In this document: positions 29,383 through 43,943 of the stretch, one piece after another | How the letters are laid out: every line of letters begins with the position of its first letter | How positions within the stretch are numbered: position 1 is the first letter of the stretch | Assembly (NCBI RefSeq): GCF_037963835.1 | Contig: NZ_CP150145.1 | Location: forward strand, 1,240,001-1,304,000 | Length of the DNA: 64,000 nucleotides | Source: Paenibacillus sp. FSL H8-0332 | GTDB taxonomy: Bacteria; Bacillota; Bacilli; Paenibacillales; Paenibacillaceae | Direction of reading: 5' to 3' | Made by a program: the position numbers and the translations under genes | Notes under the pieces: generated by a model | What the model saw: the letters and a program-made list of their open reading frames with translations, nothing else | What the model was told of the DNA's origin: nothing | Database searches by the model: none

Positions 29383-29462
29383 TTCATATCCTCTATTTTA
29401 ATAGTGAGAGTAGGATTTGGGAATATACGGGCATAATTTAAATTCATATTATTTAAGAATGA

Positions 29463-30067
29463 CTAGAAATTCATTACTACAGTGGATTGAGTAGTTCTAA
29501 GTCTTGCTAATTCGGCAGTTCCATTTGCCTGACTTTTATAGTATGGAGTGTATGAGCCCCCATTTGAAGATTGTTTGGCATAAGTTAGCAACTCAGAAGC
29601 CAATAGATAACCTTGTACATTAAAAAAAGCAATTATTGAACTTACCGCAGGAGATAGCACAGAGTCAGATACCCCAGCAGTTGAAAATCCATTTTTAAGT
29701 GAATTCTGTTGGGAAATATAATTTTCATATTCAGCGATATTTGTATCATAACCCGCAATTAAATCTGATAATTTACTTTTTCGGTTTCGTCAGTTTCATT
29801 CTCAAAATCCTTTTCAAGTCTTTCTTTGCCTTTAACAAGCTCATTTAAAACGGTTGTTCCTTGAGTTTCCATAAATATTTCAATCTCATTAATATTGTCT
29901 GTTAATTTTTGTTGAACTTGGGAATTGGTCAATTGATTATCTGAGATATGACTATTAAAAGTGGAAGTAGGGTAATTTTGCGCCCCTACTTGAGTAAGAC
30001 CTGTTGTTCCAGCTAGAAATGTTGCAGTGCTCATCAATAATAAAAATTTTTTAATAGTATTCTTCAT
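29463..30067 (-). pseudogene. secreted hypothetical protein, broken by a one-base frameshift
   Basis: Two overlapping frames together give one protein of about 201 aa. The first (30067 to 29759) has a signal peptide (KKFLLLMSTATFLAG, cleavage near VGA) and ends in ETEKVNYQI; the second continues from about 29780 as SKLSDLIAGYDTNIAEYE and runs to 29463 ending VVMNF. Adding one A to the five-A run at 29777-29781 (T on the plus strand) rejoins them. The mature protein is helical and Gln/Asn/Ser-rich with no recognised domain. It may be a true pseudogene, a phase-variable homopolymer or a sequencing error. Confidence 0.7.
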
Positions 30068-30211
30068 TCATCTGCCTTCAGTGAAATTTAATAAAACAGT
30101 CTTAAAACTATAAAGTTATTATTCCCTTACTATATATATTATTCCATTTAACTTACATATAATATCATAAATATGTATATAAAGTAATGGAAATCTAATT
30201 ATGTATTAAAT

Positions 30212-30378
30212 ATTCTCGGCTCGTTAGTGGACGATGTGATCGATCTGATTAAAGAGGTGGATTTGAAGATTGAAAAAACAAGATCTATCATAATTTGGAT
30301 ATCTTTAATGATTGGAAGAAGGAAGTCGTGGGGGGCTTCCGGCTGGACACAGGCGGGGAAGAAAGGACGCAGCGTTAA
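30212..30378 (+). pseudogene. degenerate sigK fragment (middle to region 4)
   Basis: Reads roughly as [16 protein letters not shown], then frameshifted LDI, EKEVV, and ends with GGEERTQR, parallel to 7262-7425 in the larger sigK remnant, with several small indels. It stops at TAA in the region corresponding to QREIAK. Upstream (30068-30211) is AT-rich spacer with the promoter of the minus-strand gene. Confidence 0.75.
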
Positions 30379-30456
30379 GGAGAGAGATCTGTTAGTAGAA
30401 AGGTCTCTTCTTTTATTTTATGGGTGCACTATCAGTGGAGTGGATTCGGGGAAACG

Positions 30457-30508
30457 TAAAAATAAACCAATTCGAATCGGAAACGATCGCGATTGGTTTA
30501 TTTTTTTA
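30457..30508 (+). terminator. A/T-rich hairpin terminator
   Basis: TAAAAATAAACCAAT (30457-30471) pairs with ATTGGTTTATTTTTTTA (30492-30508), giving an A-rich stem with a T run, usable in both directions. Confidence 0.65.
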
Positions 30509-30566
30509 CATCATATTGTTTCCATAACCTGATCAAGTTCATCATGAGTTCTATAAATCTAAGTAG
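30503..30566 (+). pseudogene. sigK fragment with junction-like left side and 3' tail
   Basis: TTTTTTTACATC and CCATAACCTGATCAAG resemble the left border of the main remnant (6988-7022: TTTTTTACATCGCATCG and CCACAACCTCAAG), then the frame at 30537 reads VHHEFYKSK and a stop, like the sigK C terminus. So a shared left junction and the gene's 3' end are brought together with the middle missing. Confidence 0.6.
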
Positions 30567-30642
30567 TGAGGTCATGCATAAATTAGGAGATTGAACCGAT
30601 AAGTTGTTAGAAGGATTAGAGAAGGAATAAGAGGAGTAACTC

Positions 30643-30918
30643 ATGGTCATTAGTCTTTTTTTTGTTATTTGCAGTGCCGCTTGGGGGGCTTGGATATGGT
30701 ATTTAATAATCAGGATATTATTATCTTTAGGAGGCGGTTTATTCGTAACACTTTATGATTCTGTATTCTTTTACATTACGATTCTGATAATATGGACTGC
30801 AACCGGACTTCTATTTGCGAATCATCTGAGGGAACAAAAACTGGATCTGTTGTTGTTTGTGTGTGGGATAACGTCACTTCTAGCTTTTTTTGTAGCAGCC
30901 ATGTCTTTTCTGTTGTGA
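30643..30918 (+). CDS. small hydrophobic membrane protein
   Basis: The 91-aa protein consists almost wholly of three membrane helices (about 4-28, 38-58 and 67-90) joined by short loops, with the only strongly charged stretch at NHLREQKLD. AGAGGAG lies 8 bases before the ATG. No family is recognised. It lies between two sigK fragments. Small immunity or regulatory membrane proteins look like this, but there is no direct evidence. Confidence 0.5.
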   Translation: MVISLFFVICSAAWGAWIWYLIIRILLSLGGGLFVTLYDSVFFYITILIIWTATGLLFANHLREQKLDLLLFVCGITSLLAFFVAAMSFLL

Positions 30919-30936
30919 TTTGATCTTCATTGGTAT

Positions 30937-31000
30937 AATTGGGCTGATTAAGTTAACGAGAGCTATCGCCCGAACACGAAGCAGGTTGGTCTTTTTCTCG
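30937..31000 (+). pseudogene. sigK fragment (region 2)
   Basis: ATTGGGCTGATTAAG, then GAGAGCTATCGCCCGAACA and CGAAGC follow 7069-7125 of the main remnant ([17 protein letters not shown]) with a few deletions. It is out of order relative to the fragments at 30.2 and 30.5 kb, which correspond to later parts of the gene. Confidence 0.7.
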
Positions 31001-31031
31001 AATTTCTCAAAAGCTTCAAACGTTAAAAACG

Positions 31032-31068
31032 CAGCGATTCTTCCATTATTGGAGAATCGCTGTTTTTT
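31032..31068 (+). terminator. intrinsic terminator
   Basis: CAGCGATTCTTCC (31032-31044) pairs with GGAGAATCGCTG (31051-31062) with one bulged T, followed by TTTTTTG. It would end transcription of the small membrane protein gene before the biosynthetic operon. Confidence 0.8.
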
Positions 31069-31181
31069 GTTTTTGGTCGATTGCTTGATTCAATAGATTA
31101 TAGATGTTGAAAAGTGTTTTCGTATCCCGCTTAAACAGCGGAAAGGACGGAACGATTGTGTAAAAGCGTCAGCGGTCGCCT

Positions 31182-31277
31182 TTGTCCCCGGATTTTCACC
31201 GCTAAGGAGAATCAATAAAATCTGGGGACAACAGCGATTGGAACAACGGTCCGTTCGTGGAGCGTCCACCCAAGTGC
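31182..31277 (+). repeat. dispersed repeat, copy 2, with an adjacent long hairpin
   Basis: TTGTCCCCGGATTTT (31182-31196) pairs with AAAATCTGGGGACAA (31217-31231), and 31239-31277 matches the inverted copy at 21609-21647 (36 of 39). No coding potential is seen. It may be a REP- or MITE-like intergenic element. Confidence 0.65.
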
Positions 31278-31437
31278 CTCCGTCGATCTTACTCTCAACA
31301 TATATAAAATTTTAATCAAAACGATAAAAAAGTTTGATATATTTACATTTATTAGGATAAAGAGGTATGATTCGATATGTAATTATTTTACTTTAATTAG
31401 AAAAATATATGAGAATATGCCTTAGGAGGTGAGAGAT
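31278..31437 (+). promoter_or_regulatory. leader and probable promoter region of the biosynthetic operon
   Basis: This AT-rich 160-base stretch precedes the first operon gene. A possible promoter is TTGATA (31334-31339) with GATAAA about 16 bases on. No Fur box (GATAATGATAATCATTATC-like) is visible, and no regulator gene lies in the operon. TAGGAGGTGAG at 31423-31433 is the ribosome site of the first gene. Confidence 0.4.
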
Positions 31438-32409
31438 TTGATCTACGACAATGTGCTGCAATTGATTGGGAACACACCGATTGTTAAATTGAATTACCTT
31501 CCGGAGCCTCTTGGGGCGCAGGTATTCATCAAGCTGGAGGGACTTAATCCCGGAGGCAGCATGAAGGACCGCACGGCGCTGTACATTATCAGCCAAGCGG
31601 AGGAAGCGGGTCTGCTGCAACCCGGCGGCACGATTGTTGAATCTTCCTCCGGGAATCTGGCGATCGGGCTTGCGCTTGTGGCCCGGCAAAAAGGGTACAA
31701 GCTGATTTGTGTAGTCGATCCCAAAATAAGCCCGGTCAATCTCAGCATTATCCAGGCTTATGGCGCAGAGACCGTGATGGTGGAGCAGGCTGACGAGTAT
31801 GGAAACTTTCTGAGAGCGCGCATAGACAAGGTGCAGGCTCTCGTTAAGCAGCTCGGGGCATTCTGGCCGAATCAGTATAATAATCCCAGCAATCCGGAAG
31901 CGCACATCCAAACCACCTCACGGGAGATCTATGAAGCCTTCGGCAAGGAGCTTCACTGGGCGGTGATTCCCGCAGGGACCTGTGGCTTAATCACCGGTTG
32001 CAGCTTGGGGCTGAAGGAACATATTCCGCAGATCAAAATAATGGCTGTGGATGCAGTCGGCTCCGTTACCTTTGGAATGCCGCCGGGTGTCCGGTATCAG
32101 ATCGGCATTGGTTCGGCCATTGTCCCGGGCAATATGCGGAGACATTTGTACGATGAGGTTACCCATGTGTCGGATGCTGAGGCCTTCGCTACTACCCGCA
32201 GACTGGTGAAGGAGGAAGGGCTGCTGGTTGGAGGTTCTGCAGGTGCGGCGGTGTTCGCTGCGCTTAAGCTTGCAGAGCGCCTGCCCGCTACCGAGAAAGT
32301 GCTGGCGATTCTGCCTGACCGGGGAGACCGCTATTACAATACTATTTTCTCGGATGAATGGCTGGAGAAGAACGCGATTGAACTGGATAAACACGCTGTC
32401 AAAATTTGA
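31438..32409 (+). CDS. sbnA: SbnA-type N-(2-amino-2-carboxyethyl)-L-glutamate synthase
   Basis: The 323-aa PLP enzyme of the cysteine synthase fold has the PLP lysine in GGSMKDRTA, the substrate loop ESSSGNLAIG and a glycine-rich PAGTCGLITG phosphate cup. The residue pattern (LIYDNVLQLIGNTPIV start, ESSSGN rather than EPTSGN) fits SbnA-type enzymes, which join O-phospho-L-serine and L-glutamate. The TTG at 31438 is chosen because AGGAGG lies eight bases upstream. With the SbnB-type enzyme at the other end of this operon it should make L-2,3-diaminopropionate, as in staphyloferrin B and zwittermicin pathways. Confidence 0.9.
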   Translation: MIYDNVLQLIGNTPIVKLNYLPEPLGAQVFIKLEGLNPGGSMKDRTALYIISQAEEAGLLQPGGTIVESSSGNLAIGLALVARQKGYKLICVVDPKISPVNLSIIQAYGAETVMVEQADEYGNFLRARIDKVQALVKQLGAFWPNQYNNPSNPEAHIQTTSREIYEAFGKELHWAVIPAGTCGLITGCSLGLKEHIPQIKIMAVDAVGSVTFGMPPGVRYQIGIGSAIVPGNMRRHLYDEVTHVSDAEAFATTRRLVKEEGLLVGGSAGAAVFAALKLAERLPATEKVLAILPDRGDRYYNTIFSDEWLEKNAIELDKHAVKI

Positions 32410-32416
32410 GCCGGGG

Positions 32417-33541
32417 GTGGACCCAATTTCTGTTTCGTTACGCCGCAATGTCGTTGACCGTGCAGTAAGACAGGCCCGACAGCAGCTTACCAGGCTGGCC
32501 TCATTGCCGCCCTCAGAGGAGATCAGACTTCCTTATGTCACGCATCACGGAAAATATATTCTCGGGGATAAGTGGTCGTCCGGATTTTTTATCGGCTTGC
32601 TCTACCGGCTCTACCAGCTGACCGGCGATCCAATCTATCTGGAGGAGGCGGACCACTGGATCGGCCTGATCGAACCCTACAAGAATCAAGGCGATTATCA
32701 GGATATTGGATTTCTGTTCTATTATTCTTATGCGCTGGGGTATGAGCTGACCGGTAAGGATGCCTATAAGGCCACCGCGCTTGAAGCTGCCGATCATCTC
32801 TTTGATTCTCAGCTTCCGGGCGGGTATCTGGAATGTAATTGGCTGCCCGAAGGGAAGCATTATGCCGGCATTGACAGTATGATGAATATCCGTTTGTGGT
32901 TATGGGCCAGCCGGGTAACCGGTGAGACACGCTACCATACCGCTGCCATGGAATCCGCACGTATTACCAGTGAAGCGATGATGAGGGAAGACGGCTTTAC
33001 TTACGAATACATGCGAATGAACCCTTTTACGGGAGCCGCAGAGCAGCCCTATAACAAGAATGCAAGATTCGGCACCGAATCGGTCTGGGCCAGAGGTCAT
33101 ACATGGGCATTGTATGGAGCTGTACAGCTATATGTATTGAACCGTGAAGAGGAGTGGAGACACAAGGTCCAGCAGCTCTCCGCCTTCTACTTATCCCATG
33201 TCTGCACAGATGGTGTTCCGGCATGGGATCTGATGTTGTCCGGCGAAGATACAGCCTTGAAGGATGCTTCGGCCGCTGCCATTGCCTGCTCTGCATTTTT
33301 TCAATTCGCCGCAGCCTTAAGCGATCAAGATCCCTTGCGCCAGCCCTTCCTGCAACACGCAGAGCGAATACTGGATACTTTGACTTCTGCGGAATATGCT
33401 CCTTCGGGTCCTGACCACGAGGGAGTGCTGGTGCACGCCAGTTCACCCCTGCATATCGTTCAAACCGCAGGAGAATCCCAGATCTGGGGCGATTATTTTC
33501 TTCTGGAGGCTCTATATTACGCATTGGAGGTCGGTTCTTAG
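32417..33541 (+). CDS. GH88/GH105-like six-hairpin glycosidase-fold protein
   Basis: The protein of about 374 aa has the alpha6/alpha6 barrel pattern of unsaturated glucuronyl/rhamnogalacturonyl hydrolases: a YQDIGF segment, then GIDSMMNIRLWLWAS with the usual catalytic-type Asp, and RGHTWALYGA. The start is uncertain: the GTG at 32417 lies just after the previous stop but has a poor ribosome site, while ATG at 32354 would overlap the previous gene. Its end overlaps the start of the carrier gene (TAGTG). Family members hydrate and cleave 4,5-unsaturated uronides; such a reaction has no obvious place in an amino-acid-based pathway, so the enzyme may have been recruited for a new hydrolysis or for removing a protecting sugar. 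Confidence 0.8.
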   Translation: MDPISVSLRRNVVDRAVRQARQQLTRLASLPPSEEIRLPYVTHHGKYILGDKWSSGFFIGLLYRLYQLTGDPIYLEEADHWIGLIEPYKNQGDYQDIGFLFYYSYALGYELTGKDAYKATALEAADHLFDSQLPGGYLECNWLPEGKHYAGIDSMMNIRLWLWASRVTGETRYHTAAMESARITSEAMMREDGFTYEYMRMNPFTGAAEQPYNKNARFGTESVWARGHTWALYGAVQLYVLNREEEWRHKVQQLSAFYLSHVCTDGVPAWDLMLSGEDTALKDASAAAIACSAFFQFAAALSDQDPLRQPFLQHAERILDTLTSAEYAPSGPDHEGVLVHASSPLHIVQTAGESQIWGDYFLLEALYYALEVGS

Positions 33542-33813
33542 TGAATGTTAGTGTCGGATCAATAGAATCTAGCGATATTAAAATAGTTATCGAAGAGGGG
33601 CATCCTGCGATTCAATTCATCAATATGGTGCCGGAGCTCCCGGACCAGCAGGTCTATGATTATGTCGTCCCTCTATTGGAGCAATATGGACTGGCGGGCA
33701 GGTCCCCTCAGATCTGGTTCAATGGAGCCAATGAGTGGGTGGTCCGCAGCCGCTGCGAAGCATTAGCCTACTCTCTGAATCCTGTGAATCAGCGGGAAGG
33801 GGTAACGGGATGA
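33541..33813 (+). CDS. CitD-like acyl carrier protein (citrate lyase gamma subunit-like)
   Basis: The 90-aa protein starts at a GTG with GGAGGT eight bases upstream. VGSIESSDIKIVIE near the N terminus matches the citrate lyase gamma-subunit motif AGTLESSDVMV, in which the first Ser after Glu carries the 2'-(5''-phosphoribosyl)-3'-dephospho-CoA arm; here that is Ser10. The C-terminal RSRCEALAYSL matches the family's RARLEAL. The protein should be modified by the CitG and CitX products encoded downstream. It is followed by a CitE-like gene with a four-base overlap (ATGA). Not an ordinary phosphopantetheine carrier: there is no DSL motif. Confidence 0.85.
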   Translation: MNVSVGSIESSDIKIVIEEGHPAIQFINMVPELPDQQVYDYVVPLLEQYGLAGRSPQIWFNGANEWVVRSRCEALAYSLNPVNQREGVTG

Positions 33814-34538
33814 GTCTAGCTGCCGAACAACTCGTCTATTTCTATGTTCCGGGATACAAACCGAATTACATAGAGTATGCTATGACCTTCTATCCTATGA
33901 ATATTATTCTCTGCCTGGAAGACGGCACGCCGGAAGACAAGAAGCTGGAAGCCAGATACGTGGTTAAGAATGCGCTTCAGGAGTTCACAGACTCGGAGCA
34001 TACTCTCATTGTCCGCATTAACAGTGTTCATACCCCGCACTGGGAGCGGGATCTGGAAGAGGTTGTGCCGCAGCGCCCCGACCGCATCCGCTTGCCAATG
34101 GTCAAGACGGCGGATGATCTGCGTCAGATTGAACGCAAGGTGCAGGAGATGTTGCGGGACCTGGGTCTGGACTATACTCCCAGCTATGAAGTCATGATCG
34201 AATGCTGTGAAGCTATTGCCAATATCGGCGACATTCACCAGGCCAGCGACAATATCTATGCCTTTACCTTTGGAGGAACAGATTATTTCAATGACTGTGT
34301 AGCTAAGGGGCTTGTGGACCCGGCCCGGGAGGTGCTTAGCGCCAAGCAGAAGCTGGGAGCTTACTGCCGGAGTATGGAGCTGCAGTGTTTTGACACCACT
34401 TATATGGCCTTCCGTGATCTGGAGGGGTTCCGCGAGGATTGTCTGCTGTCCAGGGAATATGGCTTCACCGGACGTTCAGTCATCCATCCTGACCAGGTTG
34501 CCGTTGTCCAAGAGATTTACGGAACTTCATTAGCGTAG
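33810..34538 (+). CDS. CitE-like lyase/aldolase (HpcH/HpaI fold)
   Basis: The 242-aa protein follows citrate lyase beta subunit through most of its length: LEDGTPEDKKLEAR (metal-site region), the substrate arginine in VRINS, the acidic residues in MIECCEAIANI and TFGGTDYFND, and the ending YGFTGRSVIHPDQVAVVQEIY. CitE proteins are about 290-300 aa; here the C-terminal 45-50 residues forming a lid are absent. CitE cleaves citryl-carrier to acetyl-carrier and oxaloacetate, or the reverse. No CitF transferase gene is present, so free citrate turnover is unlikely; a biosynthetic carbon-carbon bond formation on the carrier is my inference. The start at 33810 is set by overlap with the carrier gene; a longer frame upstream lies inside it. 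Confidence 0.85.
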   Translation: MSLAAEQLVYFYVPGYKPNYIEYAMTFYPMNIILCLEDGTPEDKKLEARYVVKNALQEFTDSEHTLIVRINSVHTPHWERDLEEVVPQRPDRIRLPMVKTADDLRQIERKVQEMLRDLGLDYTPSYEVMIECCEAIANIGDIHQASDNIYAFTFGGTDYFNDCVAKGLVDPAREVLSAKQKLGAYCRSMELQCFDTTYMAFRDLEGFREDCLLSREYGFTGRSVIHPDQVAVVQEIYGTSLA

Positions 34539-34547
34539 GAGGCTGTT

Positions 34548-35789
34548 ATGTTCACAACATACCGATTGGAATTACCTGAGCCTGTGACTCTGAATAAGCT
34601 TCAAATCCCTGTTTTCACCCATATGTTCCTGCAAAATGTATCTGCCCATAAGGTGCAGGTCGATCCGATTCAAGGGAAGCGCATCAGCGTCACTTATTTA
34701 TCCGCCTATCCCAGGGAGCAAATCGAACAGGAAGTCGCTGGTTTTCTGGAACGGTTCGCCCCGAAGCACCTGGAGGATTCCTTATCATCCGATGAAGTAC
34801 AGGAGCCTGCACTGAATGTGGTCGAACTGCCTGAGCCTCCATTAGAGCATCTGTGTTCCTGCTGCAAGCCGGGCAACGATCTGAACATCTCGGACGGCCT
34901 GCTGGAGCAGGGATGGCTCACTCTGCTGAAGAATCAGGAGCTGGCCTACCATCGCCCGATCATCCGTCTGCTGGAGTATTTTGACCAGAGTTATGTGGAT
35001 TATGTCGGCCGGAGGATCGGGGATTGTCAGGAACGGCAGTATTCAGTTTTGTTGCCTGCTGCGTTCGCCGAGAAGATGAATTACTTCCATAGCGCACCGA
35101 TGCATTTGCTGCTGGCCACTCATTTAAGCCATGATCATGAGACAATGAAATCCTTCGCTACAGATGTATCCGTGAATAACGGGAAGCTGCCGCAGGACTG
35201 CGGTCCTTATCTGGAGACGCCTCCCTATATCCTGCAATCTGCCCCCTGCTATAAAGTCTATATGGAAATGGAGGATCAGATGTTTGAGGACAATACCGCT
35301 TTTGTGCTCAAAGGCCAGTCCTTCCGCAATGAAGGCAAACGTGTATATCTGCTTGAACGGTTATTGAATTTCACCATGCGGGAATTCGTATTTCTGGGTA
35401 CTCCCGAATACGTCACCCGGATGCGTGACTTGACATTAGGGTGGACCATCGAGTGGATGGAAGCCGTAGGGATGAAAGGCGAGTGCGCCTTAGCCAATGA
35501 TCCATTCTTCCTGCCGGGTAAGGTGAAGCAGAATTTCAAAGTGCCCAAACATGTGAAATACGAGGTTCGTGCGGATATTCCGTATAAAAACGACACGATT
35601 TCTATTGCTTCCTATGATACGCATGGCGATTTTTTTGCGAAAACCTTTAACTTTAGACTGAGGGACAATACGGAAACGTGGTCGGGTTGCATCGGGCTAG
35701 GACTGGAGCGGGTAGTCTGGAGCTTCCTCCAGCAGTATGGCCTGGATCATGACAACTGGCCTGAGGCGATCCCGGAGAGCGCACAATGA
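34548..35789 (+). CDS. class II aaRS-like amino acid:carrier-protein ligase
   Basis: The 413-aa protein resembles the seryl-tRNA-synthetase-derived amino acid:[carrier protein] ligases, not a tRNA synthetase: there is no tRNA-binding arm. The motif 2 region reads SFRNEG then LLERLLNFTMREFVFLGTPE, and motif 3 is CIGLGLERVV. The three zinc ligands of that family are in place: Cys234 (PCYKVY), Glu279 (REF) and Cys381 (GCIG). The first 100 residues are an extra domain I do not recognise. Known members adenylate Gly or Ala and place it on a phosphopantetheine arm. Here the likely partner is the CitD-like carrier two genes upstream. GGAGG precedes the ATG; the end overlaps the CitG gene by four bases (ATGA). 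Confidence 0.83.
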   Translation: MFTTYRLELPEPVTLNKLQIPVFTHMFLQNVSAHKVQVDPIQGKRISVTYLSAYPREQIEQEVAGFLERFAPKHLEDSLSSDEVQEPALNVVELPEPPLEHLCSCCKPGNDLNISDGLLEQGWLTLLKNQELAYHRPIIRLLEYFDQSYVDYVGRRIGDCQERQYSVLLPAAFAEKMNYFHSAPMHLLLATHLSHDHETMKSFATDVSVNNGKLPQDCGPYLETPPYILQSAPCYKVYMEMEDQMFEDNTAFVLKGQSFRNEGKRVYLLERLLNFTMREFVFLGTPEYVTRMRDLTLGWTIEWMEAVGMKGECALANDPFFLPGKVKQNFKVPKHVKYEVRADIPYKNDTISIASYDTHGDFFAKTFNFRLRDNTETWSGCIGLGLERVVWSFLQQYGLDHDNWPEAIPESAQ

Positions 35790-36718
35790 CAGCTTCGCAA
35801 CAGGATACATCCTATTCGCTTGCTGAGGCGATGACCTACAGTGTTCTGGCGGAGGCGGTGAGCTGGCCTTCTCCCGGACTGGTCTCCGCCGTCAGCACGG
35901 GTTCTCACGGGGATATGGATATCTACACTTTTCTGCGAAGCGCACTCCGCATTCAGCCGTATTACCAGGCCGCAGCCCGCTTGGGCATAGAAGAATCTGC
36001 GGACAGAACCGGCAGGGAAGATCTGTTCAGAATGCTCCAGAAGCTCGGGCGGCGTGCCGAGGCTGGCATGCTGAGGGCTACCGGGGGAGTGAATACCCAT
36101 AAGGGAACGATCTTCCTGGGGCTGATTCTATGTGCGGCTGCGGGAATAACCAGCCAAGGGCCATCCGGCGGCGCAGAACCACAGGACATCTGCCGGCTGG
36201 CCGGAGGGATCGCCGGGAGTCCGCTTCGTAAGCAGCTAACGGACATCCTGAAGGAGACACAGATTACAAGTACAGGCGGACGCGCGTACAGGGAATGGCG
36301 GATCAGAGGCATTCGCGGAGAAGTGATCGACGGATTTCCTTCCATTCTCCAGCAGGGTCTGCCTTCCTTCCGTTCTGCGCTTGATCAGGGGGCGAACATG
36401 CGAACGGCGGTTATTCATTGCTTGTTCTCCCTGATGTCTGTGGTTCAAGATACAACGCTTCTGAACCGTGACTTTGACAGGACGCGGATCAGTTATACGC
36501 AAGCGTGTGCGCTGGAGGCTCTGGACCGGGGGAGCCTGTTCACCTCTGAGGGCAGGGCCTATATCCGCAAGCTGGAGAAGGATTTCCAGCTTCGTTCCTT
36601 GTCGCCCGGGGGATCGGCCGATCTTCTGGCCATGACGGTTGCCCTGCACTTGTGGGACGAGCATCAAGGGGGGGAAGTATGTGGAGAACCACTCCGTTAT
36701 GTCTGCCATTCTTCGTGA
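35786..36718 (+). CDS. citG: CitG-like triphosphoribosyl-dephospho-CoA synthase
   Basis: The 310-aa protein has the CitG hallmarks GGVNTHKGTIFLGLILCAA and LSPGGSADLLAMTV plus conserved VSWPSPGLVSAVSTGSHGDM near the N terminus. CitG makes 2'-(5''-triphosphoribosyl)-3'-dephospho-CoA from ATP and dephospho-CoA, the precursor of the citrate lyase arm. Length is usual. It is coupled by ATGA to the ligase gene and by overlap to the CitX gene. Confidence 0.92.
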   Translation: MTASQQDTSYSLAEAMTYSVLAEAVSWPSPGLVSAVSTGSHGDMDIYTFLRSALRIQPYYQAAARLGIEESADRTGREDLFRMLQKLGRRAEAGMLRATGGVNTHKGTIFLGLILCAAAGITSQGPSGGAEPQDICRLAGGIAGSPLRKQLTDILKETQITSTGGRAYREWRIRGIRGEVIDGFPSILQQGLPSFRSALDQGANMRTAVIHCLFSLMSVVQDTTLLNRDFDRTRISYTQACALEALDRGSLFTSEGRAYIRKLEKDFQLRSLSPGGSADLLAMTVALHLWDEHQGGEVCGEPLRYVCHSS

Positions 36719-37232
36719 CCGTGAGCGCCTCCCTGAGCTTAGAGAGGCGAGGGTTCCGGCGGCAGGCTCGCTGATCCAGATCATGATGAATATTCCCGGA
36801 CCATCCAAGAGGCTGGATTGCACTTATGAATTGTTCGAGCTCTGTATCGGGGCTATGCAGAAAGCGCTGGCTTCATCAGCTTGTGAGGTGATGTCCGTGG
36901 AGCGGATCGACTTGAGTGTTGGTCCGGTAGCCTATATGCAGGTGTCATGGGAGGCTACAGCGTTGAAACGGTTCTGTTTGTCATTCGAACAGGGACATCC
37001 GCTGAGCGCCTATTGGGATATTGATATTTACAGTTCTTCGGGAAGAGCAGTGGGCAGGAGGGAGATCGGGGCCCCGCCGCGCCCCTGTTATCTGTGCAGC
37101 CAATCTGCCAAAGTGTGCGGATCACAGCGGCGCCATTCGCCGGAGGAATTAATAGGCCGCATGACCGCTGATCTGACAGCCTACAGACAGGCGCAGATGG
37201 GTGTGCCGATTGCAAGGAAGGCAGTCACATGA
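36681..37232 (+). CDS. citX: CitX-like apo-carrier phosphoribosyl-dephospho-CoA transferase
   Basis: The 183-aa protein has the CitX pattern LRDRERLPELRE at the start and RPCYLCSQSAKVCGSQRRH near residue 145. CitX attaches the triphosphoribosyl-dephospho-CoA product of CitG to the serine of the carrier. The GTG at 36681 is chosen because a run of seven Gs ends six bases upstream. It overlaps the CitG gene by 38 bases and the transporter gene by four (ATGA). Confidence 0.88.
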   Translation: MENHSVMSAILRDRERLPELREARVPAAGSLIQIMMNIPGPSKRLDCTYELFELCIGAMQKALASSACEVMSVERIDLSVGPVAYMQVSWEATALKRFCLSFEQGHPLSAYWDIDIYSSSGRAVGRREIGAPPRPCYLCSQSAKVCGSQRRHSPEELIGRMTADLTAYRQAQMGVPIARKAVT

Positions 37233-38467
37233 ATCTTTTCCGAAAGTTAAAGGTGCCCCGGCCGATATTCTCCATTTGTCTGAACACGCTGGTTACCCAT
37301 CTTGGCTTCTACGCCATGACGGCGATATTAACGGTCTATCTGTCTCAGGTCAAAGGACTGCCGCTGTCGGTTACCGCTGTAGTTACCATGATCTTCACGG
37401 TGTCTTACCGCAGTGCGAGATTCCTTACCGGACCCCTGCTGGACAACATGGACCCGTTCAAATGCATGTGGTTCGGCTGCCTGCTAACAGGGGTCTCCAT
37501 CGCTATGGTAGATTTCTGGCAGTCTCCGGTGTTGATTACTATACAGCTTATCATTGCAGGGATCGGCTACTCTGTCCGAGGCTTATCCTCCAAGGCTTCT
37601 TTATCCTTCGTGGGGAGTAAGGATGGCAATGCCCTGTTTTATTTTGCGAATTCCAATATGTATACGAACGGTGCAGCCATTGCCGGGCCCTTAATCGGCT
37701 CCTTTCTGCTGACAAGCTCCTTGAAGAGCTTCACGTTGTCCTTCGTTGGAGGGTTTTATATTGCGGGTGCCATCCTGCTCAGTATCTTCCCGCCCGGGTG
37801 CAGCCTGCAGGACCGGGAACGGAAGCCGGTAAGCTTCTGGAAAGGATATCAGACCGTTCTGCTCGATAAAAGCTTCCGTAAGGTGCTGCTGTTCAATATG
37901 ATCGGCTGCTTTTTCTTCACCCAATTGTTCAATTCCTTTCCTTATTTAATCGGCACTTATTATAACGCTCCGGAAAGGCTGGGAAGTCTGCTGATGCTGA
38001 ACGGAATCCTTGTGGTGCTCCTGCAGATTCCTGTCGGGCGCTGGATGAATACCGCGTTGTCAGGCCAGCGTGAGGGATACCGGCTGATGCTGGCGTTTCT
38101 GCTGTTCAGTGTTTCTTTTTCTATGAATGCGTTCATCGGCTCAATCTGGGGTTATTACGTATTCGTCGCGCTGTTCAGCCTTGCAGAAATGTTATTCATA
38201 CCCACGATAGATGCGTATGTCTCTAACGCTGCCCATCCGGATCTGCGTATCACGTATTTCAGTATCATCGGATTGTCCACAGCCCTTGGCGAAGGAATCG
38301 GTGTATATACCGGGCTACAATTCATACATATGTGGAGCATCTACGGAGAGCTGTCTTACTTCTGGTTATCATTAGCTGTTCTGTCGGGGCTGTCCCTTGT
38401 ACTGTATGTAATGTTAAACCGGTCACCTGTTCATAACAAGGAGGAGGGGAAACTATGGCGGTATTAA
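37229..38467 (+). CDS. MFS transporter, probable product exporter
   Basis: The 412-aa protein has about twelve membrane helices; the loop between helices 2 and 3 reads YRSARFLTGPLLDNMDP, a variant of the MFS signature (GxLaDrxGrk). It resembles drug/sugar exporters of the major facilitator family. In a biosynthetic operon between cofactor and ligase genes it most likely exports the product and gives self-resistance. Its end overlaps the next gene by 13 bases, and GGAGGGG inside it is that gene's ribosome site. Confidence 0.88.
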   Translation: MNLFRKLKVPRPIFSICLNTLVTHLGFYAMTAILTVYLSQVKGLPLSVTAVVTMIFTVSYRSARFLTGPLLDNMDPFKCMWFGCLLTGVSIAMVDFWQSPVLITIQLIIAGIGYSVRGLSSKASLSFVGSKDGNALFYFANSNMYTNGAAIAGPLIGSFLLTSSLKSFTLSFVGGFYIAGAILLSIFPPGCSLQDRERKPVSFWKGYQTVLLDKSFRKVLLFNMIGCFFFTQLFNSFPYLIGTYYNAPERLGSLLMLNGILVVLLQIPVGRWMNTALSGQREGYRLMLAFLLFSVSFSMNAFIGSIWGYYVFVALFSLAEMLFIPTIDAYVSNAAHPDLRITYFSIIGLSTALGEGIGVYTGLQFIHMWSIYGELSYFWLSLAVLSGLSLVLYVMLNRSPVHNKEEGKLWRY

Positions 38468-39687
38468 TTCTGAATCAAAGGAGGCGAGCCTTCGCTCCTT
38501 ATCTGAGCTGGCTGGAGGATCTGGATGAAGAGGTATACCTGTATACTTCTCCGGCATATGGTGAGACAACGGAACCCTATGCCCTTGTACAGGTATTTGA
38601 CAACTGGGTGACCAATGACCGGGTAGAGATTGATGCGCTACGTTTGTATGAAGATCATCCTTACCGTCTGATTATAGCCCTCGATGAGAGCGATCTGATT
38701 CGTGCAGCCCGGCTGCGTGATCGGCTACACCTGCCTGGACAACGGCTGGACAGCGCAACTGCTTACAGGGATAAGGCGGTGATGAAAAGTCTGGTAAGGC
38801 AGTCTGTGTTATGTCCGGCGTTTCGCAGACTGGATTCGCCGCTTCACTTGTATGATTTTGTACTGGAACATGGATTGCCGGTTGTGGTCAAACCGGTTGA
38901 CGGCATGGGCTCCATGAATACGGAGATTATATGGACCCCGGAGCAATTGAACGAGGTGTGGGAACGCGGGCTTGGCAGCGGATTAATGGTTGAAGCATAT
39001 GTGGAGGGAGAGATGTATGAGATTGACGGCCTTATGATGGGCCAGGAGATCCGGTTTGCTTCTGCGGGCAAGTATTCCTGCAAGCCGCTGGAGATTCTCC
39101 AGCAGGATTGCTTCGTAGAATTGCTCAGCCCCGGCTGCGCGGTGTATGAGCGGCTGGTTCATGAAGTTCAGCAGGTCATTGAAGCCTTGCCCTCACCGGG
39201 AGTCTCAACCTTTCATTGTGAAATGTTCCATACCCCGGAGGATGAATGGGTATTCTGTGAAATTGCCAGCCGGACCGCAGGCGGGCGGATCAGCGAATCC
39301 GTCAGTGCCATGTATGGTGTTAATCTGAACCGGGAGTGGGTCCGGGCGCAATGCGGTCTGCAGCTGAAGCTGCCCGCGTCCAGTCCGCCGCAGGTAGCGG
39401 GGGTCTATCTAATGCCGAAACGTCCAGGGACAGTAAAAACCATTCCGCAGACGCTGCCCTTTGAATGGGTAAAGGAATATGTGCCCCGGGTCAGAGAAGG
39501 CGAACAACTGGACGCTGCCCATTCCAGTGTGGATGCAGTGATGACCGTAATCATCGTCGGCGGGGATTCGGTCTCACTGCAAGCCAGGCTGTCACAGCTC
39601 CTGCAATATTTGGAGAGAGAAGTACAAATTCTGCCTGCACTGAAGGAGGTTGCATGGAGTGAAGCATCTGTTATTGGTAGAAAGTAA
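38455..39687 (+). CDS. ATP-grasp ligase 1
   Basis: The 410-aa protein has the ATP-grasp pattern: the nucleotide-binding lysine strand [15 protein letters not shown], the segment [18 protein letters not shown], and the magnesium-binding region [25 protein letters not shown]. It belongs with carboxylate-amine/thiol ligases that go through an acyl phosphate. The N terminus (about 110 aa) is a Rossmann-like preATP-grasp domain. It probably forms an amide bond in assembly of the product. Overlaps the transporter gene and the next ATP-grasp gene. Confidence 0.87.
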
Positions 39688-40900
39688 TGAATCTATTACA
39701 GGCATTCAGGCTTGCCGAGAGCTGGGGTATACCGTTACTTTGATTACCCAGGATATCCAGCATTATCTGAAGGGCCAGCCGCTGGCGTCTCATCCGCTAC
39801 ATATGGTTGATTACATACATGAAGTGGATACCTTCAATGAAGAGGCTGTGGTCGATTTTGTAAAAGAGTACCACAAAGTACATCCGCTAACGGGAGTCAT
39901 GTCTTTTGCGGAATTCTACGTGGTTCAGGCAACGGCTGCTGCGCATGCTATTGGTGTGCCGACCATGCATCCGCTGGCCGCCAAGAATGCCCGGAATAAA
40001 TATAAATCCAGAGAACTATGCCTCCAGAACGGTGTTCCGGTTCCGGTCTCTTTGTTGGCAGCCAGCGTTGAGGAAGCTTGTCAGCATGCACAGGCCATGG
40101 GCTATCCCTGCATCATTAAACCCTGTGACGGGGCAATGAGCATTGGCGTGGTATTGGTTAACAATGAGAGAGAGCTGCGGCTCTCGTACGACAGCTATGT
40201 GAACAACCGGAATTATGGTCGGAATCTCTATGGAAGTGCCGATGTGCTCATTGAGGAGTTCGCAGCAGGGCCTCTGGTTAGTGTGGAGATGGTTACGTAT
40301 CAAGGGAAGGATGTTCTGATCGGGATTACGGACCGCCGTCTGGTCGGGTTTCCTTATTTTGTGGAGACAGGGGCGAGCTTCCCGGTTCAATTGAGCAATG
40401 AGACGGAGATTGTTGAGGCTGTGAGCCAAGGATTACGTGCGCTTGGGGTTGATTTTGGCCCGACCCACACGGAGGTGGCCCTTACCCCTGAAGGTCCCAA
40501 GATCATTGAGTTCAATCCCCGTATGGTCGGAGGTCCTGTTCCGGAGATGATTAAATACGCAACCGGCATCCATCTGCCCGCTGAAGTGCTTCGTATGCAT
40601 ATGGGGGAAGAGCCGAATCTGACGGCAACGGTCTCCCGCGGAGCCGCTTCCCGGGAATTCTGTTCGCCGGTGGACGGGACGTTACTGGAAGTTACCGGCC
40701 TTAAGGAGTTAGAGGGGCGGCCGGATATCCTGAAGTCGCATTTCATTGCTGCCGGGCGCGAGGTATCCTATCCACGGTCTAATTTTGACTGGATTGGCAG
40801 AGTTACCGTTGGAGGGGACGATGCAGAGCAGGCTGAGCAGAAATGCAGTGAAATCCAGAATGGGATTGGTCTGCATATTGTTGCCAGACCTTTAAGCTGA
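39659..40900 (+). CDS. ATP-grasp ligase 2 (L-amino acid ligase-like)
   Basis: The 413-aa protein carries PCIIKPCDGAMSIGV, VLIEEFAAGPLVSVEMVTY and the magnesium-binding FGPTHTEVALTPEGPKIIEFNPR (EFNPR with upstream Glu), very like L-amino acid ligases such as BacD and the dapdiamide ligase DdaF. The C-terminal YP..N segment is also typical. The GTG at 39659 is set by AGGAGG ten bases upstream; the frame overlaps the previous gene by 29 bases. It is the better candidate for joining diaminopropionate or its conjugate to another amino acid. Confidence 0.88.
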   Translation: MKHLLLVESNESITGIQACRELGYTVTLITQDIQHYLKGQPLASHPLHMVDYIHEVDTFNEEAVVDFVKEYHKVHPLTGVMSFAEFYVVQATAAAHAIGVPTMHPLAAKNARNKYKSRELCLQNGVPVPVSLLAASVEEACQHAQAMGYPCIIKPCDGAMSIGVVLVNNERELRLSYDSYVNNRNYGRNLYGSADVLIEEFAAGPLVSVEMVTYQGKDVLIGITDRRLVGFPYFVETGASFPVQLSNETEIVEAVSQGLRALGVDFGPTHTEVALTPEGPKIIEFNPRMVGGPVPEMIKYATGIHLPAEVLRMHMGEEPNLTATVSRGAASREFCSPVDGTLLEVTGLKELEGRPDILKSHFIAAGREVSYPRSNFDWIGRVTVGGDDAEQAEQKCSEIQNGIGLHIVARPLS

Positions 40901-40911
40901 GGAGGCCAACG

Positions 40912-41886
40912 ATGTTATTCTTAAATACTGCAAATTTACAGAGCATTCAGCTTCCCTGGAGCAGAAGTGTCGATATGATACGAAGAACGGTTCAAGTGAT
41001 GGCAGCGCACGAATTCTCCCAGCCTATTAAACCCTATCTGCTCTTTGATAAAGATCCAAGCAGCCGGATTATTGCCATGCCTGCTTATGTGGGCGGAGAG
41101 ATCGGGATGGCAGGCATCAAGTGGATCGCCAGTTTTCCCGGTAACCATGCCAGGCAGCTTCCCCGTGCCCACTCGGTTACGATCCTGAATGATTCCGGCA
41201 GCGGGAAGCCTGTGGCTATAATCAACAGCCCGCTTATCTCCGGGATTCGCACAGCATCGGTCAGCGGGCTGATGATTCAGGAATACGAGAAGGTACACCC
41301 TTTTGCCGGTAAAATTATTGCCGGTATCGTCGGGTTCGGGCCGATCGGTCAACTCCATCTGTCGATGCTGAATCAGCTGCTCGGGGACCGGCTGGAGGAG
41401 GTTCGGATCTTTGATCCGAATCAAGATACACTGCAACCCATCCCGGAAGAGCTTGGTACAAGGGTGCGGCCTGTGGATTCCTGGGAGGATGCCTACGAAG
41501 GGGCTGATCTGTTCATCACCTGTACAATTTCTAGCTCCGGTTATATTGACCGCAAGCCCAAAGCACAGAGTCTGCTGCTGAACGTGTCTCTGCGCGATTT
41601 CACCCCGGCTATCTTAAGCTACACCTCTGCCATTATTGTTGATGACTGGGATGAAGTGTGCCGTGCGAATACGGATATTGAACATATGCATAATCAAAGA
41701 GGGCTGCGGAAGGAAGACACGGCGTCCATCGTCGAGGTGGTCTGCGGCAACGCGCTGGCGAAATTCCCGAAGGAGGAAGCGGTCATGTTCAATCCGATGG
41801 GAATGGCCGCCTTTGATATTGCTATCGGCGCCCTTTATTATCAGGAAGCGCTGAATCGCGGGTGTGGTAAGGAGTTAGAGGAGTAG
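40912..41886 (+). CDS. sbnB: SbnB-type N-(2-amino-2-carboxyethyl)-L-glutamate dehydrogenase
   Basis: The 324-aa protein is of the ornithine cyclodeaminase/mu-crystallin family, with the NAD-binding GIVGFGPIGQLHLSML and the SbnB-like features KWIASFPGNHARQLPRA and ILNDSGSGKPVAIINSPLISG IRTAS region. SbnB oxidatively cleaves the SbnA product with NAD+ into 2-oxoglutarate and L-2,3-diaminopropionate. GAGGAGG lies before the ATG, eleven bases after the ATP-grasp gene. It is the last gene of the operon and is followed by a strong hairpin. Confidence 0.9.
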   Translation: MLFLNTANLQSIQLPWSRSVDMIRRTVQVMAAHEFSQPIKPYLLFDKDPSSRIIAMPAYVGGEIGMAGIKWIASFPGNHARQLPRAHSVTILNDSGSGKPVAIINSPLISGIRTASVSGLMIQEYEKVHPFAGKIIAGIVGFGPIGQLHLSMLNQLLGDRLEEVRIFDPNQDTLQPIPEELGTRVRPVDSWEDAYEGADLFITCTISSSGYIDRKPKAQSLLLNVSLRDFTPAILSYTSAIIVDDWDEVCRANTDIEHMHNQRGLRKEDTASIVEVVCGNALAKFPKEEAVMFNPMGMAAFDIAIGALYYQEALNRGCGKELEE

Positions 41887-41909
41887 GGGGCAAAATCAGC
41901 ATATAAAAT

Positions 41910-41948
41910 AGCCGGGCCGGATAAGAGATACTCTTGTCCGGCCCGGCT
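41910..41948. terminator. strong hairpin ending the biosynthetic operon
   Basis: AGCCGGGCCGGATAAGAG (41910-41927) pairs almost perfectly with CTCTTGTCCGGCCCGGCT (41931-41948) around ATA. A T run is weak. It separates convergent genes. Confidence 0.8.
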
Positions 41949-41969
41949 GTGTACTGCCTCGTCACAAGG

Positions 41970-42176
41970 CTACGGATTCTTGCGGTTCCTCTTCTCTTCC
42001 AGATCTGGTGCAAGGCCGGGAGCCGCTACCTCCGTGTCATTCCCCAGCACGGCGCCTACGATCTCATCCAGCTTGTCTGTTTCCGATTGACCGTCTGCCG
42101 GACTGGATTCGCCCTCCGGGATCGGGTGGACACCTGCGGTGCGTCCGTCAAGCGGAGCTTTTTGATCATCCTTCAT
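41970..42176 (-). CDS. small acidic hypothetical protein
   Basis: The 68-aa protein is hydrophilic and probably disordered, rich in Asp, Glu, Gly and Pro, with a basic end (EEKRNRKNP). AAGGGAGA lies about eleven bases before the ATG. It has no membrane segment or known motif. It is placed convergent to the biosynthetic operon and downstream of the MerR gene on the other strand. Confidence 0.5.
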   Translation of the reverse strand: MKDDQKAPLDGRTAGVHPIPEGESSPADGQSETDKLDEIVGAVLGNDTEVAAPGLAPDLEEKRNRKNP

Positions 42177-42280
42177 CTGTCAGTCTCCCTTCTAAGTGCA
42201 GGTTCTGTCTTAGGATGTGTCTGCGATAACCGTTCTATGTAACGATAACCGCTGCGGAGGCTGATGAACCATACGGCTGG

Positions 42281-42673
42281 TTAGGATTGGTGGACCACTT
42301 CCATACTCTTTTCCAGGGCAGTCTTATAATAGTGGCATTTATGGTCTATGACTTCCATCGTTTTTCTTAATTCCTCCATTTGCGCTTCTACAGAAGCCTT
42401 CCGCTCCAGGAACATGTCGTATCGGCGCTGCAGGGTGGAATCTCCTTCGGAGCACCATTCAATGAAATGCTTAATCTCTTTGATGGGCATCCCGGAGGCC
42501 TTCAGGCATTCAATGATCCGCAGGGCCTCCATATCGGAGGGCTTGAATACGCGTTTGCCGCTGGGAGTTCTCTCTATAGAAGGGAGCAGGCCCTCTTTGT
42601 CATAATAACGCAGGGTATGCGGGGTCATGTTGAAATGCGCTGCGGCTTCGCTTATGGAATAGGTCTTCATCAT
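42281..42673 (-). CDS. MerR-family regulator
   Basis: The 130-aa protein has the winged helix (YSISEAAAHFNMTPHTLRYYDKEGLL, residues about 4-29), the second DNA-binding part GKRVFKPSDMEALRIIECLKASGM and a long dimerisation helix. There is no cysteine cluster for metal; one Cys lies in the helix (IEWCSEGD) and one in HKCHYY. It resembles AdhR-type regulators that sense reactive aldehydes and control adjacent alcohol dehydrogenase genes. It is divergent from such a gene, with a classic MerR promoter between. Confidence 0.9.
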   Translation of the reverse strand: MMKTYSISEAAAHFNMTPHTLRYYDKEGLLPSIERTPSGKRVFKPSDMEALRIIECLKASGMPIKEIKHFIEWCSEGDSTLQRRYDMFLERKASVEAQMEELRKTMEVIDHKCHYYKTALEKSMEVVHQS

Positions 42674-42701
42674 CGTTCTCCTGTCCTGGATATTTCGGGC
42701 T

Positions 42702-42732
42702 TGACTTAGAGTTAACTTTAAGGAATATCATA
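42702..42732 (+). promoter_or_regulatory. MerR-type promoter of the alcohol dehydrogenase gene with operator
   Basis: The -35 TTGACT (42702-42707) and -10 TATCAT (42727-42732) are 19 bases apart, the over-long spacer that MerR proteins correct. The palindrome CTTAGAGTTAACTTTAAG (42706-42723; CTT..AGTTAACT..AAG) fills the spacer and is the likely operator. Confidence 0.85.
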
Positions 42733-42788
42733 GGCTTTGTAAAGCTTAAGGAATGATGTCTACTATTCTATTGAAAAGAGGTCTCACT

Positions 42789-43838
42789 ATGATACAAGTT
42801 AACGCACGCGCTGCATTCAGCCAGGAAGGCCCGTTCAAGCTGACTACGATCGAACGCCGGGAGCTGCTGCCGCAGGATGTTCTGATCGAGATTAAATACG
42901 CCGGTATTTGCCATTCCGATATTCATACCGTCCGCGGGGAGTGGGGACCGGTGAAATATCCGCTGGTTCCGGGGCATGAGATTGCAGGTATTGTCAGCCA
43001 GATCGGTTCTGGAGTGACGAAATATGCTGTTGGCGACCGTGTCGGGGTAGGCTGTATGGTCGATTCCTGCGGTGAGTGCAGCAGCTGCCGGCAAGGCGAG
43101 GAGCAATATTGCCTGGAGGGGAACACGGGAACCTATGGAGCGACTGACCGCCACGGGCACTATACACAAGGCGGATATTCCACACATATCGTTGTCACTG
43201 AAGACTTCGTGGTGCGGATTCCCGACAGCCTTCCGCTTGACGCTGCTGCACCGCTGTTGTGTGCCGGAATCACTACTTACTCACCACTGCGCCACTGGGG
43301 AGCTGCTCCCGGCAAAAAGGTAGCTGTAGTGGGTCTCGGCGGGCTGGGGCATATGGCAGTGAAAATTGCTCATGCCATGGGGGCTGAGGTTACGGTGTTA
43401 TCCCAATCCCTGAAGAAGAAGGAAGACGGCCTGCAATTGGGCGCAGATCATTATTATGCCACCACTGATCCGGAGACATTCAAGCAGCTGGCCGGTTCCT
43501 TCGACCTGATCATTAATACGGTCAGTGCGCAGGTGAATATCAATGCTTTCCTGTCACTCCTGGCGCTGGACGGGACGTTGGTGAATGTCGGTGCACCTGC
43601 TGATCCTTTGGCTGTTAATGCCTTCTCGCTGATCGGACACCGCCGTTCCTTTGCCGGTTCGATGATCGGGGGAATCCGCGAGACACAGGAGATGCTTGAT
43701 TTCTGCGCTGAACATCAGATCGCTTCCGAGATCGAAGTGATTTCGGCTGACCAGATTGACGAAGCCTGGGAGCGTGTGCTGGCCTCGGATGTGCGTTACC
43801 GGTTTGTGATTGATATCAGCACGATGGGGAAGGCATAA
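42789..43838 (+). CDS. zinc NAD(P)-dependent alcohol dehydrogenase (YahK/AdhA-like)
   Basis: The 349-aa enzyme starts [10 protein letters not shown] after GAGGT; an upstream ATG at 42753 has no site. Catalytic zinc ligands are Cys and His in GICHSDIH and PGHEIAG, with the structural zinc cluster [15 protein letters not shown]. The coenzyme fold shows [20 protein letters not shown]. It reduces aldehydes, probably with NADPH as in close relatives such as YahK, and is controlled by the divergent MerR protein. A clear hairpin lies after it. Confidence 0.93.
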
Positions 43839-43879
43839 GTATTTAGAGGAGCAAGATTCTTAATCTATACTGTTTGAAA

Positions 43880-43922
43880 AACAGCCTGCGGGAATGGAAC
43901 TACTCCATTCCCGCAGGCTGTT
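43880..43922. terminator. bidirectional terminator
   Basis: AACAGCCTGCGGGAATGGA (43880-43898) pairs perfectly with TCCATTCCCGCAGGCTGTT (43904-43922). It lies between the convergent dehydrogenase and alpha-galactosidase genes. Confidence 0.85.
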
Positions 43923-43943
43923 GGTATTTCTGCCTAGCTTCTC

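Follow-up and report, generated by a model that had tools for sequence, protein, structure and literature searches.

What might a bacterium build with the carrier protein of citrate lyase when that carrier is encoded beside an amino acid ligase and genes for diaminopropionate? The question is raised by an operon of Paenibacillus sp. FSL H8-0332 (assembly GCF_037963835.1, a single contig of 7,543,334 bases), which we analyzed within a window of 64,000 nucleotides, positions 1,240,001 to 1,304,000 of contig NZ_CP150145.1. The operon comprises eleven open reading frames (ORFs) on the + strand at window positions 31438-41886, in the order SbnA, GH88, CitD, CitE, amino acid:carrier protein ligase (aaCL), CitG, CitX, major facilitator superfamily (MFS) exporter, ATP-grasp 1, ATP-grasp 2, and SbnB. 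We cautiously favor its being a biosynthetic pathway for an exported amide metabolite containing L-2,3-diaminopropionate (L-Dap), in which an amino acid is loaded on CitD and CitE joins a 2-oxo acid to it. The architecture of the operon is well supported; the substrate, the direction of the chemistry, and the role of the GH88 protein are what we infer from sequence and predicted structure, on which the whole analysis rests.

As in the citrate lyase operon (CitCDEFXG), there are homologues of CitD, CitE, CitG, and CitX, and citD adjoins citE. These and the other genes were assigned by Pfam and NCBIfam profile searches of the eleven proteins. The CitD-type acyl carrier protein (ACP; 33541..33813) matches PF06857 at 27.2 bits, with a cut-off of 25.1, and has a Ser10 in an ESSD motif that we take to be the attachment site of the prosthetic arm; Ser10 and Asp12 are invariant in all eight aligned rows, which include two ordinary CitD proteins and one malonate decarboxylase carrier. 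CitD is the sole recognized carrier of the operon, with no PP-binding match among the eleven proteins, and none of the eight genomes found to carry such a cluster, the window's genome included, has any PF06857 match besides its operon's CitD. The 242-residue CitE-type lyase/aldolase (33810..34538; PF03328, 113.9 bits) keeps Arg69, Glu131, and Asp158, invariant in 7/7 aligned rows and presumably the Arg/Glu/Asp catalytic residues of the family. CitG, a triphosphoribosyl-dephospho-coenzyme A (CoA) synthase (35786..36718; PF01874, 216 bits), and CitX, an apo-carrier phosphoribosyl-dephospho-CoA transferase (36681, with GTG as the start, or 36699, with ATG, to 37232; PF03802, 124 bits; TIGR03124, 111 bits, cut-off 105), read by sequence as clear members of their families. 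The MdcB and CitG equivalog models score nearly equally on CitG (217 and 214 bits), both under cut-off.

Ordinary operons in the family run CitD-CitE-CitF, followed by CitC, CitX, and CitG (locus L109; CitF also in L110). Unlike these, the window's operon has neither CitF nor CitC and instead places aaCL beside a shorter CitE, together with L-Dap, ATP-grasp, and export genes. The CitF profile PF04223, for which the control search in E. coli was positive, matches nothing anywhere in the window's genome. The only match there to the CitC profile PF08218 reaches 30 bits over 62 profile positions, in a 173-residue cytidylyltransferase-like protein that reads as CoaD (PF01467, 105 bits). Within the family, the same profiles score CitF of L109 and L110 at more than 700 bits and CitC of L109 at 246 bits. 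A carrier system of this composition, lacking CitF and CitC, had been proposed in an earlier sequence-only reading of the locus, and the profiles bear it out. Ordinary citrate lyase is ruled out by the missing CitF, the CoaD-like nature of the single CitC-profile match, and the contrasting CitD-CitE-CitF operons of L109 and L110. Malonate decarboxylase is likewise ruled out, since CitX is present in the operon and an Mdc decarboxylase subunit is not; that type is seen at locus L111 (MdcE, 193 bits).

What occupies the place of CitF and CitC is aaCL (34548..35789), which had been described as a ligase resembling an aminoacyl-tRNA synthetase, an assignment that NCBIfam, structure, and alignment evidence all favor. 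It has no Pfam match at 0.01, and its only NCBIfam matches, all under equivalog cut-offs, are the serine--tRNA ligase models PRK00960 and TIGR00415 and the amino acid--[acyl-carrier-protein] ligase PRK07080 (110 bits, cut-off 357), making it a relative of the amino acid:[carrier protein] ligases and not an equivalog. Its sequence matches are the methanogen-type seryl-tRNA synthetase (SerRS; 3w3s) and the Bradyrhizobium glycine:carrier protein ligase Bll0957. The predicted model (mean pLDDT, a per-residue model confidence, 85.0) superposes on 3w3s with a Z of 33.9 and a root-mean-square deviation (rmsd) of 2.7 over 322 residues and on 4h2w with a Z of 28.6 and an rmsd of 2.6 over 283 residues, matches that begin past residues 1-81. 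Like Bll0957 and methanogen-type SerRS, aaCL has the class II SerRS-type catalytic core with a Cys-Glu-Cys zinc site: Cys234, Glu279, and Cys381 align with what we take to be the zinc ligands of Bll0957 and are present in 39/39 aaCLs. Unlike Bll0957, it has about 100 residues ahead of the matching part, and other aaCLs of the bacterial family are also 320-430 residues or longer.

A further departure from Bll0957 is that the partner of this aaCL appears to be a CitD-type carrier. In a 39-row tree, rooted at the midpoint and including a long branch (L056) and a sequence of odd letter make-up (L038), a branch supported at 100/100 separates the CitD-linked aaCLs from all the others, and, judged by sequence, they are a distinct group. 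Eight alignment positions are fixed in the eight CitD-linked proteins and rare in the 31 others. Lys236, two residues past Cys234, is replaced in the others by His (30 of 31) or Tyr (one), and Asp357 by Asn in 31/31; the segment around Asp357 presumably faces the substrate, as in SerRS. Positions 236 and 357 are candidate pocket residues, and both suggest that the substrate may differ from that of other aaCLs. A small phosphopantetheine-carrier ORF lies within 2.5 kb at 11 of the 31 other aaCL loci and a CitD-type ORF at none. The count comes from a rough motif run over the small ORFs on a single strand; carriers inside larger proteins would escape it, and its hits at L033, L035, L043, and L051, together with a second hit at L047, were discounted by eye. 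Since the carrier beside an aaCL, where visible, is normally of the phosphopantetheine type and here is CitD, the carrier looks exchanged in this group. At another locus (L041, 8842-11421), a different aaCL has as neighbors an SbnB homologue (50% identity) and a small carrier ORF of the phosphopantetheine type, downstream of genes that read as ketosynthase-like, possibly another L-Dap pathway with an aaCL.

Five of the remaining genes had been named as SbnA/SbnB, two ATP-grasp ligases, and an MFS exporter beside the carrier genes, in agreement with their Pfam and NCBIfam matches. The SbnA-like enzyme of L-Dap biosynthesis, dependent on pyridoxal phosphate (31438..32409), exceeds the TIGR03945 equivalog cut-off (385 bits, cut-off 350), and the SbnB-like dehydrogenase of L-Dap synthesis, encoded by the final gene (40912..41886), matches PF02423 above cut-off (90.6 bits) and falls slightly short of the TIGR03944 equivalog cut-off (318 bits against 327). 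The best NCBIfam match of ATP-grasp ligase 1 (38455..39687) is PRK02186, at 57 bits; its ATP-grasp and LAL_C2 matches are under the Pfam cut-offs. ATP-grasp ligase 2 (39659, with GTG as the start, or 39650, with TTG, to 40900) matches PF13535 at 72.7 bits and LAL_C2 at 39.2 bits and is 50% identical to the ATP-grasp protein of the Paenibacillus pinihumi cluster. The MFS exporter (37229..38467) matches PF07690 at 84.8 bits. SbnA/SbnB homologues and ATP-grasp-type ligases are shared with the dapdiamides, L-Dap amide antibiotics put together by ATP-dependent ligases. Unlike the dapdiamide system, the operon has no DdaF equivalog (ATP-grasp 2 scores 37.5 bits on NF041595, cut-off 840), and assembly of its acyl unit would take place on CitD. 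A passage of PMC3179956 places SbnA/SbnB-type L-Dap genes in the zwittermicin, viomycin, and dapdiamide clusters.

The sequence-only reading had named ten of the eleven genes and left the other without a name. It encodes a protein with the fold of GH88, the family of unsaturated glucuronyl hydrolase (UGL), at 32417..33541 (PF07470, 58.8 bits, cut-off 26.6), and is present directly upstream of citD in all eight clusters, which makes it a necessary part of any description of the core. The predicted model (mean pLDDT 79.8, built from a five-row alignment) matches the UGL structure 3wiw with a Z of 45.7 and an rmsd of 2.3 over 353 residues and 1vd5 with a Z of 43.7 and an rmsd of 2.4 over 354 residues; fold matches to epimerases and mannanases, with Z under 29, were left unused. 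Like UGL, it keeps both catalytic aspartates, Asp96 and Asp153 aligning with Asp88 and Asp149 of UGL and being invariant in 5/5 aligned rows. Unlike UGL, it has Gln95 and Glu197, also invariant in the five rows, in place of His87 and His193, which we take to be active-site histidines, and its gene lies inside a carrier-protein operon. An enol-ether-hydrating fold encoded close to a candidate C-C bond former may hint, and only hint, that the GH88 protein hydrates, dehydrates, or releases a tethered product.

The gene combination recurs. Of 394 family genomes searched at the protein level with aaCL, 50 have a match at 1e-10, and eight of these (the window's own included) encode a full-length or near-full-length aaCL of at least 44% identity, the next best being 32%. 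A neighborhood search elsewhere for CitD with the SerRS-like ligase and SbnA had been suggested, and the combination is found in seven further genomes. The eight genomes hold six related operons and two divergent clusters, in G075 and in P. pinihumi (G277). Five relatives, among them Paenibacillus silagei, P. tritici, and P. piscarius, carry the complete set of eleven genes in identical order, each gene at 63-99% identity. The six-gene block GH88-CitD-CitE-aaCL-CitG-CitX is contiguous in three lineages, with ATP-grasps and exporters varying around it. Each of the seven other clusters has an SbnA homologue (36% identity in G075, 58% in P. pinihumi, 89-99% in the rest), and SbnB homologues occur in 8/8 cluster genomes. 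In G075 the block is surrounded by three ATP-grasp genes, an MFS gene, SbnB, and the SbnA homologue. In P. pinihumi SbnA adjoins the block and SbnB is the final gene, after two ATP-binding cassette (ABC) exporter genes and another gene whose product matches BtrH_N slightly below cut-off; further members are a phosphopantetheine ACP, an amidohydrolase-2 protein, a Rieske protein, a 412-residue protein with no Pfam match, an AMP-binding ligase, and one ATP-grasp protein. The amidohydrolase-2 and Rieske genes of this cluster (L055, 12305-13752) follow CitX, and neither is found in the window's operon.

A CitE-type search at 1e-50, run on 392 order genomes sampled from a larger group, returned the same eight genomes as the aaCL type. 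PF06857 is over cut-off in 11 of 59 genomes with an aaCL (50 of the family and nine further from the class), corresponding to the eight clusters, two citrate lyase operons, and one malonate decarboxylase operon; a match under cut-off in G491 (23 bits) lies in an unrelated 147-residue ORF with no Cit genes around it. Neighborhoods were read in 22 of the 42 non-cluster family genomes with an aaCL match. The aaCL profile gave 13 matches in 398 genomes of the class and two in 299 of the phylum, the window's own counted in both. In-depth sampling covered the window's phylum; beyond it, we used a scan of 84,980 species genomes and a plasmid collection. The scan, built on two automatically selected peptide patterns that would miss relatives lacking them, gave five loci: four are of the cluster type, and the fifth, in Xenorhabdus griffiniae, has no Cit genes. 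In the plasmid collection, tblastn gave 93 records for aaCL, none covering 80% of the query, and 457 for CitE, all under 60% identity.

The operon is evidently no chance array of ORFs, as all eleven genes are under purifying selection, with ratios of nonsynonymous to synonymous substitution (dN/dS) of 0.07-0.30 by a simple Nei-Gojobori count against two relatives (L036 and L034). An alpha-galactosidase-like gene downstream (43944-45224) is common to all five relatives and other neighbors mostly to three or more, which places the operon at one ancestral site in them. In P. tritici (L035, 6331-16794), identity to the window's operon is 98-99% for SbnA, GH88, CitD, CitE, CitG, and ATP-grasp 2 and 95% for CitX, and is lower for aaCL (89%), MFS (84%), ATP-grasp 1 (86%), and SbnB (90%), a mosaic suggestive of an exchange of operon segments between lineages.

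How these proteins might work together can be sketched as follows. By homology, CitG and CitX would fit CitD with the phosphoribosyl-dephospho-CoA arm. The aaCL, standing in for CitC and CitF, would activate an amino acid with ATP and load it on the arm as an aminoacyl thioester, and we regard the loading of an amino acid on CitD as probable. CitE, working in the synthetic direction, would add the alpha carbon of this thioester to a 2-oxo acid, yielding a branched hydroxy amino di- or tricarboxylic unit; on whether CitE forms this C-C bond our judgment is evenly balanced. The synthetic direction would be natural for CitE because aaCL, by supplying a fresh aminoacyl group for each turnover, would take over both the loading done by CitC and the acyl exchange done by CitF. 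The GH88 protein might then act on the tethered unit, perhaps by hydration, dehydration, or release, SbnA and SbnB would make L-Dap, the two ATP-grasp enzymes would join L-Dap, the new acid, and possibly a third unit through amide bonds, and export of the product would fall to the MFS protein. This reading draws on CitD as the sole carrier of the operon, the lack of a CitF match and the CoaD-like CitC-profile match, the conserved six-gene core, and the occurrence of the CitE type and the aaCL type in the same eight genomes. It draws equally on the 100/100 support for the aaCL group, the zinc ligands (39/39), the CitE residues (7/7), Ser10 of CitD (8/8), the apparent exchange of carrier, the SbnA score over cut-off, and purifying selection. 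The overall interpretation offered by the sequence-only reading holds in part: it is supported for the carrier system, the ligase, the L-Dap genes, the ATP-grasp ligases, and the exporter, whereas its glycine is no more than a candidate substrate, residues 236 and 357 differing from those of all 31 other aaCLs, and its oxaloacetate and aminocitrate-like product are likewise candidates. Glycine with oxaloacetate, giving aminocitrate, is one option among several, and aminocitrate itself is an unlikely product.

Several observations weigh against this pathway. CitD is divergent (27 bits for a cut-off of 25), and both it and CitE fall far short of the ordinary equivalogs (19.7 bits with a cut-off of 63.5 for citD, 134 bits with a cut-off of 443 for citE). 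CitE stops ~50 residues short of the C terminus of ordinary CitE and may have a different activity as a result, and we know of CitE-family enzymes acting only on acyl thioesters without an alpha-amino group. SbnB is just under its equivalog cut-off (318 bits, cut-off 327), and the SbnA homologue of G075 is only 36% identical. In P. pinihumi a phosphopantetheine-type ACP is encoded upstream of SbnA, so the amino acid could sit on that ACP there. The roles proposed for aaCL, CitD, and CitE come from homology, those of the named catalytic and zinc residues are our assumption from their families, and the pathway leaves the role of the GH88 protein unexplained.

The amino acid loaded on CitD might also be L-Dap itself, made by SbnA and SbnB and carried for tailoring, with CitE and GH88 modifying or releasing it and no aminocitrate-like acid being built. 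SbnA homologues in 8/8 clusters and SbnB homologues in 8/8 cluster genomes are in keeping with this, and Lys236 and Asp357, where other aaCLs have His (30/31) and Asn (31/31), could be relevant if an acidic residue near the amino acid held its second amino group. These are, however, two of eight differing positions and may simply pair together, coupling of L-Dap by the two ATP-grasps might need no carrier, and the kept CitE residues point to lyase or aldol chemistry with a 2-oxo acid, for which L-Dap has no obvious need; we consider L-Dap loading rather unlikely. The same kept residues would serve if CitE ran in the lyase direction, the physiological one in citrate lyase, with aaCL charging CitD with a hydroxy amino acid that CitE then splits, and the core acting as a degradative or precursor-supply module. 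But there would be no acyl exchange on the carrier without CitF, the ATP spent on each loading fits synthesis, and the surrounding genes are for L-Dap, ATP-grasp ligases, and export, leaving a degradative core improbable in our view.

Staphyloferrin B offers another comparison, as its operon (sbn) also supplies L-Dap via SbnA/SbnB and its SbnG is, we assume, a CitE/HpcH-fold source of a citrate-like acid and in this respect like the operon's CitE. A related carboxylate siderophore is conceivable, since iron could be bound by a conjugate of L-Dap with a citrate-like unit. Yet none of the eleven proteins matches an IucA/IucC-type synthetase of the kind termed NIS (nonribosomal-peptide-synthetase-independent siderophore) in Pfam or NCBIfam, and the chemistry would be carrier-bound and not on CoA, in both respects unlike staphyloferrin B. 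Moreover, the window contains no match to one 19-base Fur-box consensus with up to three mismatches allowed, and no siderophore uptake gene was recognized by eye among its ORFs of at least 150 residues. We give a siderophore pathway little credence and continue to favor the synthesis of an exported L-Dap amide on CitD.

At the level of layout, the claim of eleven one-strand genes with gaps or overlaps under 30 bases stands in count and strand, with a single exception in spacing: CitG and CitX overlap by 38 bases if CitX begins at GTG 36681 and by 20 bases if it begins at ATG 36699. The first start is TTG 31438, preceded by AGGAGGTGA. Upstream of the operon lie a terminator-like hairpin (31031-31063) and, on the + strand, a promoter-like site, TTTACA-18-TATGAT (31342..31371; 10/12 in a consensus scan), of a type not commoner here than in shuffled sequence (eight found, shuffle mean 9.9). 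Rfam gave no match at the gathering score across 28500-44000.

Elsewhere in the window, a 1344-residue protein (2923-6957), following an ABC ATPase gene, appears by reading to combine a permease with a metallopeptidase-like, HExxH-containing part. A 1037-residue protein (25427-28540) reads as an amidase with C-terminal S-layer-homology repeats. A third, of 1902 residues (54214-59922), has many near-identical repeats of ~90 residues, HAMP-like by reading, followed by GAF-, histidine-kinase-, and receiver-like parts.

Each enzyme of the operon comes from a known family, and the combination appears new; a published pathway with this gene set, of which the earlier reading likewise knew none, was not found in the open-licence PubMed Central full-text literature as judged from search listings. 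To our knowledge, the phosphoribosyl-dephospho-CoA arm has been known only from citrate lyase and malonate decarboxylase. We tentatively suggest, at somewhat less than even confidence, a new thiotemplate logic in which the CitD arm, once charged by a SerRS-like ligase, holds an amino acid that a CitE-type enzyme extends by joining it to a 2-oxo acid through a C-C bond; a new class of L-Dap-linked metabolites would result. If true, the arm would also serve amino acid chemistry in natural product biosynthesis, and an amino acid:carrier protein ligase would gain a pathway role. With aaCL in a conserved operon beside one defined carrier, the enzymes that modify that carrier, and a candidate C-C bond former, the substrate, carrier, and product become directly testable.

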